From Meiothermus sp. (lineage in GTDB: Bacteria; Deinococcota; Deinococci; Deinococcales; Thermaceae), in assembly GCF_025056915.1 (NCBI RefSeq), contig NZ_JANWVH010000019.1, forward strand, positions 1 to 37,796: a DNA stretch of 37,796 nt, written 5' to 3'. This document shows positions 10,552-37,685 of this stretch, piece by piece (the first letter of the stretch is position 1; every line of letters begins with the position of its first letter). The notes beneath the pieces are model-generated. The model searched no databases. It was given only the letters and a program-made list of their open reading frames with translations, and was not told the origin of the DNA. A program made the position numbers and the translations under genes.

Positions 10552-12447
10552 CTAGTCTGGTTCTTCCTCCGCATCGGAAGACAAGGCCTCCAGGGCCACC
10601 TCGCGCCCGGCTTCCGGGTGAAACTTGCGCAGCCTTCCACCGAATAGCTGGACCAGTTTTTGAAAACGGGGGTCTTCCAGCAAGCTGGCCTCGAGGGCGG
10701 GCCTGGCTTCGGCCTCCTCCGATGCCTCATCGGGGAGGGTGGGGTCGAACAGCGAGGCTTCGGGGTTCCAGGGTTCCGGTTCGGGCGGCCCGGCCACCGG
10801 GGGGTGTTGCAGCGATGGATGGGGTTCTTCCCAGGGGGGTCCGCGGGGGCCCGCCCGAGGGGGGGCGGCCGGGTTGGGGGGCGCCGCCGGACGGTTTCCC
10901 GGGGGCAGCGGTTTTGGGTGCTCCGGGGCCGCAGGGGTTGGCGGGGCAGGTGCCCCGGCGGGCTCTACTTTGCCGGTGGCCTTCGGGGGGGTGGGCTTGT
11001 CGGTGGGTGAAAAGGGGCGGGCCGAAGGCTCATCCGCTGGTTTTTTTTTCCCGCCCAGCCGCAGTTCGACCTGCTGGAGGCCCAGCACTTCCCGCACGGC
11101 CTGCTGGATGTCCTCGAGGTTTTTCTGCGCTCCCTGGTGGTGGAAGCTGGCCCGCTCGGGAAAGAGCAGCACCACCTTGTCTTCCTCGAACCGGGGCTCG
11201 GCCTCGCGCACAAAGGCCCGCACGGTGCTTTTGAGCACCCCCATGACCCGCCGCCACTCCGAGGCCAGGTCGGCCACACCCGGTGCGGAGGCACTGGAGG
11301 GCCTGGAAGTCTCCTCCTGGCCCTGGGGCCTGGTTGGAGCCCCCTGTCCTCGGGCCTCGAGCTTTCTGGGCCTAGGGTCGAAGTCGGGGAGGGGGGGGCT
11401 GCTCTGGCCGACGGGGGCTGCGTGGAGGGCCTGGTAGGCGCTCAGGAGGGCCAGCTCCAGCGATAGGGCATCGGAGCGCTTGAGGAGGCGCTCGAGGGCT
11501 TCGTCCAGGGCGGTCATGGCCGCCACTAAGCGCTCCTCAGGCTGATTCAGATGGGGGCCGAGGCCCAGCCCCATGCGCCCGTACAGGCCGGCCCGCAGGG
11601 CCTCCAGCAGCCCCTGGGCCAGGGTGCGCGCCGCAAACCCCTGGGTGTAGAGGTGCTGGGCCTGCTCCAGGGCCTGGCGAATCTGCCCCTTATCCAGGGC
11701 CTCGGCCACCGCAAACAGCGCCTCCTGGGGGGGCAGCCCCAGGGCTTCCTCGGTTTGCTGGAGGGTGAGGGGGCCCTCGAGGCTCAAAAGCCGGTCCAAC
11801 AGGCTCTCGGCATCGCGCATGGCCCCGTCGGCCAGCCGCGCAACAAGTTGCAGGGCCTCTGGCTCGGCCTGCCGGCCCAGACCCGCCAGGATGCGCTGCA
11901 GCTTTTCCACAATTTCGCCCTCGGAAAGCCGCCGGAAGCGGAAATGCTGGGTGCGCGAGAGGATGGTGGGCGGCATCCGCTCGGGCTCGGTGGTGGCAAA
12001 GATGAAAATGACGTGCGGGGGAGGCTCCTCGAGGGTCTTCAAAAGCGCGTTGAAGGCGCTCTTGGACATCATGTGGGCCTCGTCGAGAATGACCACTTTG
12101 TGCTGGCCCAGAATGGGGGCCAGCAGAATCCGCTCGCGCAGGTCGCGCACGTCTTCCACCGAGTTATTCGAGGCGGCGTCAATCTCGAGCACATCGGGGT
12201 GCCGCCCCTCCCGCACCAGGCGGCAACCCTCGCAGACCCCACAGGGCCTGGGCTCCTGGCTGCAGTTCACGGCCTGGGCAATCAGGCGGGCGCTGCTGGT
12301 CTTGCCCACCCCCCTGGGCCCGGAAAAGAGGTAGGCCTGGGCCAGCCGCCCCGAACGCAGGGCGTTCAGGAGCACTTCCTTGACGTGCTCCTGGCCCACC
12401 ATCTCGTCAAAGGTGGTGGGTCGGGCCTGGCGGTAAAGGGCGCTCAC
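10552..12447 (-). CDS. dnaX: DNA polymerase III subunits tau and gamma
   Basis: DnaX is the clamp-loader ATPase of the replicase. The 631-residue tau form starts VSALYRQARPTTFDEMVGQE; I chose GTG 12447 because this matches the family start, including Thermus, and because TAAGCT lies seven bases upstream. It contains Walker A GPRGVGKTS (43-51), zinc cysteines C62, C69, C72 and C75, the Walker B segment VVILDEAHMMS and the sensor segment TILSRTQ. A long proline-rich linker leads to the tau-specific tail. A run of nine A on the coding strand (11049-11041) encodes GKKKP. If polymerase adds one A, the frame ends after six more codons at 11030, giving a gamma form of about 472 residues, as in T. 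thermophilus. Confidence 0.95.
   Translation of the reverse strand: MSALYRQARPTTFDEMVGQEHVKEVLLNALRSGRLAQAYLFSGPRGVGKTSSARLIAQAVNCSQEPRPCGVCEGCRLVREGRHPDVLEIDAASNNSVEDVRDLRERILLAPILGQHKVVILDEAHMMSKSAFNALLKTLEEPPPHVIFIFATTEPERMPPTILSRTQHFRFRRLSEGEIVEKLQRILAGLGRQAEPEALQLVARLADGAMRDAESLLDRLLSLEGPLTLQQTEEALGLPPQEALFAVAEALDKGQIRQALEQAQHLYTQGFAARTLAQGLLEALRAGLYGRMGLGLGPHLNQPEERLVAAMTALDEALERLLKRSDALSLELALLSAYQALHAAPVGQSSPPLPDFDPRPRKLEARGQGAPTRPQGQEETSRPSSASAPGVADLASEWRRVMGVLKSTVRAFVREAEPRFEEDKVVLLFPERASFHHQGAQKNLEDIQQAVREVLGLQQVELRLGGKKKPADEPSARPFSPTDKPTPPKATGKVEPAGAPAPPTPAAPEHPKPLPPGNRPAAPPNPAAPPRAGPRGPPWEEPHPSLQHPPVAGPPEPEPWNPEASLFDPTLPDEASEEAEARPALEASLLEDPRFQKLVQLFGGRLRKFHPEAGREVALEALSSDAEEEPD
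11041..11049 (-). promoter_or_regulatory. A9 slippery tract in dnaX
   Basis: Nine uninterrupted A residues on the coding strand sit exactly where T. thermophilus dnaX has its transcriptional slippage site. One extra A gives K-K-K-T-S-G and a TGA at 11032-11030. This would produce the short gamma subunit beside full-length tau. Confidence 0.85.
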
Positions 12448-35614: not shown

Positions 35615-36073
35615 TCAGAAACCCTGGGTGGCCGGGCGGGCCGGGAGGGGCTCGTGTACCAGGGTGGTCTTGGGCGGCCTGACCTCCAGGCCCAGGTAGG
35701 CCAGAGGGGTGTTGGACTCGAGGTCAGCCGCCATGATCAGATAATCCACTTCTTCCAGCGTCCACAGGTGAACCCCGTGGGCTTGGGCAAGCTCCCGAAA
35801 CAACGGGCTGTACTGGCCATTGATGGCAATGAGGATAACCCCCTCGGCGCGATGGGTCTGCTGGGCGGCCCATAGAGCTTGCAGGGCGTTTTCGTGGCCG
35901 GGGGCTCGGGCTTCGACCTGGAACAGGTAACGCAGGCCGGTGGGTGATTGGGCCAGAACAAGGCCCTGGTCGGGGGTTAGCGAGGCAACCCAGTGGGGGC
36001 ATCGGTTCAGTAAACCGGCCACGTAGCGCAAAAAACCCTTGAGGTTGATGCCCGGCATCGCATCTATCTGCAT
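35615..36073 (-). CDS. Restriction-endonuclease-like (Mrr-type fold) protein
   Basis: This protein of about 152 residues resembles a small PD-(D/E)XK or Mrr-cat domain. LVLAQSPTGLRYLFQVEARAPG has the pattern of a metal-binding strand (D in TPDQGL, then Q-V-E), although the usual lysine is missing (VEA instead of VKR). RAEGVILIAINGQYSPLFRELAQAHGVHLW and LEEVDYLI match the downstream strand-helix pattern of Mrr-type domains. I prefer ATG 36073 with GGGGGT upstream; in-frame ATGs at 36091 and 36094 and a TTG at 36118 are alternatives. The loss of the lysine suggests an inactive or DNA-binding role. It lies beside the DnaA-box cluster. The family call is tentative. Confidence 0.5.
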   Translation of the reverse strand: MQIDAMPGINLKGFLRYVAGLLNRCPHWVASLTPDQGLVLAQSPTGLRYLFQVEARAPGHENALQALWAAQQTHRAEGVILIAINGQYSPLFRELAQAHGVHLWTLEEVDYLIMAADLESNTPLAYLGLEVRPPKTTLVHEPLPARPATQGF

Positions 36074-36198
36074 AGATACCCCCTGAACCATCATGGTAGA
36101 ACCCGGCTGTGGAAGCAAGTGAAGTTTGTACTCATATAAGGCTTATAGCCCTTTTAGGATTGGACTCATTTTTTTCTCAACAGGTGGCGGCGGCAGCC

Positions 36199-36252
36199 TG
36201 TGGATAACTCTGTGGATAACCCCGACCTTTTTGTGGATAACTCTGTGGGTAT
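36199..36252. promoter_or_regulatory. DnaA-box cluster (three perfect TGTGGATAA, one degenerate)
   Basis: TGTGGATAA, the reverse complement of the consensus DnaA box TTATCCACA, occurs at 36199-36207, 36211-36219 and 36232-36240, with a relaxed copy TGTGGGTAT at 36244-36252. The start-to-start spacings are 12, 21 and 12, all in one orientation. AT-rich stretches flank the cluster on both sides (36126-36185 and 36280-36350). This fits a replication origin, a DnaA-titration site or a DnaA-regulated promoter. Confidence 0.8.
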
Positions 36253-36352
36253 CGGAATGTTTCTCGTCAGGAGAAGTCGGGTTTTTTCGATTGAGACGCG
36301 ATTATTTGTGTGAATCGAATTGTGAAACGATTGTCACCTGAAGCCTTTTGTA

Positions 36353-36940
36353 CTAAAGCGACTTGACCCAGAACACCATGGGTTTGGCAGTGGCCTGCGG
36401 CTGGCCCAGGTCTTGCCAGGAAAACTGACAGACCAGGTCTGGGCGCTTGGAAAAGCCCCGCCGCTGCCAGAAAGCATCCAGCGGCACATAGTCAGCTGGC
36501 TTGAGGGGGTGATTGGCCGGGCGCTCCACCGCACAAAAGGTGAGCTGTCGGTAGCCGAGCTGTAAGGCCCGGGCCTCCCGATGATGAAAAAAGGCCACCC
36601 CCAGCCCTTGCCCCCGGTAGGCTGCTTCCAGCACCGATTCCCCAAAGTAGTACCACTCGGCTGGGTTGAGCCCGGCCTTCAAAAAGGGTTCTTGAAACTC
36701 GGTCTCGGCCAAGGCCAGGGGCAAAGCGGTGGAAGCCCCCACCACCCGTTCGCCGTCCCGCACCACAACCAGGGTGCTCTCGGGCCATTCCAGAAACTTG
36801 GCCAGGTAGTGCTCCTCGTACTCGAGGCTCCCCTCGTACAGATAAGGCCACTCCCGAAAAACCAACATGCGCAGCCGGGCCAGCTCCGGGATGAACGGGG
36901 CCACCTCGGCGCCGGAAAAAACGTCCAGGCGTAGGCTCAT
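36353..36940 (-). CDS. GNAT family N-acetyltransferase (single domain)
   Basis: This 195-residue GNAT protein is different from the double-domain paralogues at 2448-5435. The acetyl-CoA loop is EAAYRGQGLGVAFFHHREARA, preceded by YYFGESVLEAAYRG and followed by LTFCAVERPANHP and FWQRRGFSKRPDL. The early segment FREWPYLYEGSLEYEEHYLAKF is typical of a GNAT subgroup widespread in bacteria, whose substrate is not known. ATG 36940 has TATCTT seven bases upstream, so it is probably leaderless. It is divergent from the rhodanese gene, with 55 bases between the two starts. Confidence 0.9.
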   Translation of the reverse strand: MSLRLDVFSGAEVAPFIPELARLRMLVFREWPYLYEGSLEYEEHYLAKFLEWPESTLVVVRDGERVVGASTALPLALAETEFQEPFLKAGLNPAEWYYFGESVLEAAYRGQGLGVAFFHHREARALQLGYRQLTFCAVERPANHPLKPADYVPLDAFWQRRGFSKRPDLVCQFSWQDLGQPQATAKPMVFWVKSL

Positions 36941-36995: not shown

Positions 36996-37685
36996 ATGAT
37001 TCTGAGCGCCGACCCCCCTGCCGATGCCTTGCTGATTGATAGCCGCTCCCCCGCCGAGTATGCCCAGGGGCACCTGGAAGGTGCGCTCAACGTGGATCTA
37101 TCGGGTTTTCGGGGGCGCTTGCGAACCGAGGAGGAGTTCCGGCAGCTCGAACAGGCCCTGGCCGACCTCATCGGGCGGCTTGGGGCCGGCCCCCAGAGGC
37201 CGGTGGTGGTCTACGACACGGGCCTCAACACCCGCCTGACCAAGACCGCCTTCATGCTGGCCCTGGGCGGGCTGGAGGTGTACCTGTGGCCCCAGGGCTG
37301 GGAAGCCCAGGCGACCAGCCAAGCCTCGGTTCAGCCCAAGGAGGGCGAGCCCTGGGCCCGGCTCAACCGCCAGATTCTCCTGACCGCCGACGAGATTCTG
37401 GCCCAGCCCGAAGCGCTTCTGCTGGACGTGCGCGAACCCCACGAGTTTGCCACCGCCCGCATTCCTGGCGCAAAAAACATTCCCTTAGGCGCCTTCGGCC
37501 CCAACAATGCAGGGGCCCTGGGCCTGCAAGCCGGACAAACGGTGGGAGTTCACTGCCGCAGCGGCGCGCGCAGCGCAACAGCCTTCTGGTTGCTGCGGCA
37601 GCAGGGGGTGCTGGCCCGCAACTACCTGGGCAGCATGCTCGAGTGGGAGGCCGAGGCCGACCTGCCGGTGGAGCGGGGAAGCTGA
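36996..37685 (+). CDS. Two-domain rhodanese sulfurtransferase
   Basis: This thiosulfate sulfurtransferase-like protein has 229 residues and two rhodanese domains. The N-terminal one (about 5-108) has LIDSRSPAEYAQGHLEGALNVDL but its catalytic loop reads YDTGLNTRLTK without a cysteine, so it is inactive. The C-terminal one (about 125-225) has LLDVREPHEFATARIPGAKNIPL and the active loop VHCRSGARSATA with C187. This inactive-active order is the classical plan of mitochondrial and bacterial thiosulfate sulfurtransferases. It would move sulfane sulfur from thiosulfate or a persulfide to an acceptor. The start is leaderless, and repeat copy 3 begins 14 bases after the stop. Confidence 0.93.
   Translation: MILSADPPADALLIDSRSPAEYAQGHLEGALNVDLSGFRGRLRTEEEFRQLEQALADLIGRLGAGPQRPVVVYDTGLNTRLTKTAFMLALGGLEVYLWPQGWEAQATSQASVQPKEGEPWARLNRQILLTADEILAQPEALLLDVREPHEFATARIPGAKNIPLGAFGPNNAGALGLQAGQTVGVHCRSGARSATAFWLLRQQGVLARNYLGSMLEWEAEADLPVERGS

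Follow-up and report, generated by a model that had tools for sequence, protein, structure and literature searches.

A conserved DnaA-box array outside the replication origin of Meiothermus, a candidate site of DnaA titration

A compact array of DnaA boxes, located in the window (the whole stretch of 37,796 nucleotides, from a draft genome of the hot-spring bacterium Meiothermus, that was analysed), is present in 17 of 18 Meiothermus genomes. The analysis makes it fairly probable that these boxes form a dedicated array outside the origin but close to it, and that the array titrates DnaA. The first-pass annotation had proposed a replication origin, with DnaA titration as the alternative, and the latter emerges as the best of the remaining readings. 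The array probably helps to control the timing of replication start, because its spacing is the same in all but one of the genomes although the neighboring genes change. Once-per-cycle control of replication is poorly known outside Escherichia coli and Bacillus subtilis, and a compact array of fixed geometry, kept genus-wide amid changing neighbors, provides a clean target for testing initiator titration in the Deinococcota.

The array comprises three exact copies of the DnaA box and one degenerate copy within 54 bp (36199-36252), all in the same direction on the minus strand and with start-to-start spacings of 12-21-12 (Table 1), exactly as the first-pass annotation had described. The position of the degenerate box is occupied by an exact TTATCCACA in G001 and G017, and the array is therefore regarded as a four-box 12-21-12 array. 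Its presence is not attributable to chance, because the whole genome contains 28 exact DnaA boxes versus 4 matches to the reversed control word, and 7 tandem box pairs with 2-3 bp between the boxes versus 0 in the control. The GC content is 0.41-0.49 at the array versus approximately 0.6 in its surroundings. The AT-rich CGATTG/CGAATTG words noted earlier in the flanks are real in this genome but are not conserved across the genus, and the array spacer is 58-60% GC in three relatives. A search for Rfam matches across the window found none.

Table 1. Coordinates of the array, the flanking motifs, and the neighboring genes in the window.
Feature	Position	Strand	Remark
Degenerate DnaA box ATACCCACA	36244..36252	-	12 bp before first exact box; read from sequence
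Exact DnaA box TTATCCACA, first of three	36232..36240	-	Unchanged in 17 genomes
Exact DnaA box TTATCCACA, 21 bp from previous exact box	36211..36219	-	TTATGCACA in G017 only
Exact DnaA box TTATCCACA, 12 bp from previous exact box	36199..36207	-	
GAGAAAC motif	36259..36265	-	25-26 bp before first exact box in 14/17 genomes
CGTTTCACA motif	36321..36329	-	Contains GTTTCAC
Small gene weakly similar to Mrr_cat (restriction endonuclease-like)	35615..36118	-	Away from array in four array-bearing relatives
GNAT acetyltransferase gene	36353..36940	-	Array just beyond its 3' end
Rhodanese-domain gene, next gene outward	36996..37685	+	

Among the 17 genomes that carry the array no insertion or deletion was detected between the three core boxes, and the core box columns (the 27 columns of the three exact boxes in a gap-free anchored alignment) reach 1.99 of 2 bits versus 0.49 for the flanks. 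In G016, for instance, it occupies C1:3045320-3045361. The single exception, G012, is a genome of 84% completeness in which the GNAT gene is also missing. The species records with the same locus include M. hypogaeus, M. taiwanensis, M. rufus, and M. luteus. No boxes were found beside the GNAT gene in two Calidithermus records and two genomes of a further genus, g2, that have this gene, and in ten inspected genomes of the Thermus-like sister genus g5 (presumably Thermus itself) the 12-21-12 pattern lies inside oriC, beside dnaA. As a separate element, the array thus looks specific to Meiothermus in the genomes compared. Within the collection of papers covered, a search for Meiothermus in combination with the DnaA box returned only work on Thermus genomes.

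The gene order in most genomes is rhodanese, GNAT, array, Mrr_cat-like gene, and RidA, and several genomes depart from it. The Mrr-like gene is missing from this place in G009, where RidA is the next gene after the array, and unrelated sequence takes its place in G013 and G005. The neighbors of the array in G001 are the rhodanese gene on one side and, on the other, a polyprenyltransferase-like ORF that runs in the opposite direction and ends toward the array. The GNAT gene was not detected in G001, G004, and G017. Control of one fixed gene by the array appears unlikely, because the array is retained in genomes in which one of its usual neighbors (Mrr_cat-like, GNAT, or rhodanese) is missing or displaced. 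Besides the boxes, a GTTTCAC motif precedes the array in 17/17 genomes, at 87-89 bp from the first exact box in 15 and at 73 bp in two. This motif was also considered as half of a canonical parS site, a reading that was rejected since GTTTCNCGNGAAAC was absent from G000, G002, G003, G007, G013, and G016.

The chromosomal origin lies elsewhere. A single dnaA gene was detected, on another contig of the same draft genome (C126), which agrees with the earlier remark that the window lacks dnaA, and there ten exact DnaA boxes are located between dnaA and dnaN (10896-11220). After the last of these come a second weak box and CCCCTACTACTACTGTTACTAA, a DnaA-trio (the term for this unwinding motif being used in the sense of PMC8287927), and this oriC carries the trio TACTACTACTGTTAC; among the other oriC loci tested, four have the same module. 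Cumulative GC skew, sampled from stretches of the genome, has a local minimum at 11-12 kb of the same contig. The larger cluster beside dnaA that the first-pass annotation had envisaged as evidence against an origin was accordingly found, together with a local skew minimum; the lack of conservation that it had envisaged as well was not, the cluster in the window being widely kept. The array itself is outside the dnaA-dnaN interval, the usual place of oriC in this order, and a DnaA-trio of the form TAN x3 as unwinding element was detected in 0 of 17 arrays. The proposal that the array is the chromosomal oriC was consequently abandoned. A second or cryptic origin, or a chromosomally integrated plasmid replicon, could be imagined from four clustered boxes next to AT-rich DNA in this genome; it is extremely improbable, given the canonical oriC with its trios elsewhere, the absence of trios from the arrays, and an AT-richness that is not conserved in relatives. 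Moreover, the skew keeps its sign at the array within the window, and the flanking genes (MeaB, RidA, Usp, GNAT, rhodanese) are chromosomal genes that the relatives share, which leaves the earlier suggestion of an integrated replicon without support.

Two further explanations assign the boxes a regulatory role. They might form a DnaA-controlled promoter that regulates the downstream Mrr_cat-like gene and ties its expression to replication, as the array lies approximately 70-150 bp before this gene and is directed at it in most genomes, and transcriptional regulation by DnaA is known from other bacteria (PMC4447404). This is nevertheless unlikely: the array is kept without an adjoining Mrr_cat-like gene in G009, G013, G005, and G001, a sigma-70-like promoter was sought between array and gene and none was found, and the gene evolves fast (37-76% identity). 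Its Mrr_cat match is below the Pfam cut-off and was detected in 4/12 members. Strict conservation of spacing suggests a defined complex over a loose sink, and a partner protein could bind at the conserved motifs GTTTCAC and GRGAAAC. Both points would suit a nucleotide switch of the datA/DARS type, in which the array would not only hold DnaA but also induce it to hydrolyse or exchange its nucleotide. In datA and DARS the change of nucleotide state depends on IHF or Fis; the box arrangement of datA and DARS differs from that of the Meiothermus array, and such a switch is judged quite improbable. It is also rather unlikely that the array represents a relocated half-module of oriC, at which DnaA and a partner bound to GTTTCAC would form a defined complex and act as a genus-specific initiation switch and not as a passive sink.

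The position of the array relative to oriC is in line with the titration reading. In the draft genome itself, array and dnaA are on separate contigs; in the five relatives in which array and dnaA/oriC share one contig, the distance is 52 kb (G016), 31 kb (G013), 117 kb (G002), 140 kb (G007), and 11 kb (G003), so that several consensus boxes are clustered outside, and within 11-140 kb of, oriC. Shared gene order may be partly behind this nearness, but the side of dnaA on which the array is found is not the same in G016 as in G013. The idea that the array is always directed toward oriC was dropped, as it holds in G016, G013, G002, and G007 but fails in G003. A strong excess of exact boxes in the vicinity of oriC in general (p = 0.0003) could likewise not be upheld, because it was inflated by box pairs in CRISPR leaders; after their removal 12 loci remained versus 6.6 expected (p = 0.03, a value that treats genomes as independent when they are not).

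Other DnaA-box sites were encountered as well. A second non-coding array (G000:C137:18906; L011:1907-1950) reads TTATCCACA-2-TTATCCACA-3-TTATCCACA followed by TTATTCACA, with a spacing of 11-12-11; the fourth box is TTATTCACA in the relatives as well. G003, G002, and G013 retain this array although its flanks have diverged, and in the latter two its distance from dnaA is approximately 145 kb. Two conserved tandem pairs of exact boxes, C and D (L012:1971-1991 and L013:2051-2070), are inside genes for an NFACT-domain protein and a 2-hydroxyacid dehydrogenase, so that coding constraint may explain them. Finally, a palindromic pair of exact boxes, TTATCCACA-N6/7-TGTGGATAA, was found in CRISPR leaders, both in Meiothermus and in two of its sister genera. 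Of 17 loci tested, 15 have the pair at 63-68 nt from the first repeat, on its leader side (L205, L206, L208-L218, L220, and L221; e.g., G016:C1:11744-11768); it has no match in 27 g5 genomes. Any protein acting at this pair may be DnaA or another palindrome-binding protein. Within the collection of papers covered, none was found that connects CRISPR leaders with DnaA boxes.

For the array in the window, titration would operate as follows. DnaA is expected to bind the four same-direction boxes cooperatively, and the geometry suits DnaA because the same 12-21-12 module is found inside oriC of the sister-genus genomes checked. The locus would be copied soon after initiation, upon which free DnaA would be bound by the array and oriC would be less able to refire (initiator titration). 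Several observations speak against this reading: a few extra boxes constitute a small sink beside the approximately ten at oriC, exact boxes in general show little excess near oriC when the CRISPR-leader pairs are left out, and the fixed GTTTCAC motif is left without explanation.

Initiation control by boxes outside oriC has precedents. For B. subtilis, the review PMC5295017 describes several DnaA-box clusters outside oriC (DBCs; Okumura et al. 2012) that restrain initiation, and reports early initiation upon deletion of all six, the effect being strong only then. The Meiothermus array resembles the DBCs, as described there, in being a box cluster outside oriC, but it belongs to another phylum and keeps its exact spacing genus-wide. 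In E. coli, DnaA boxes are more frequent in the vicinity of oriC, and there is evidence for a titrating effect (PMC12371093); datA, which restrains initiation, is likewise a non-coding box cluster outside oriC. However, datA spans approximately 1 kb with five boxes and requires IHF (PMC5295017), whereas the Meiothermus array has four boxes in one direction within 54 bp. The closest likeness in geometry is to the oriC arrays of g5, which have the same TTATCCACA boxes and 12-21-12 spacing, and the spacer of the array is similar to those of oriC (p = 0.005 with all 12 columns counted; 0.06 without the box-flanking columns). Unlike those arrays, the Meiothermus array is found without a DnaA-trio and without dnaA-dnaN context, at 11-140 kb from dnaA.
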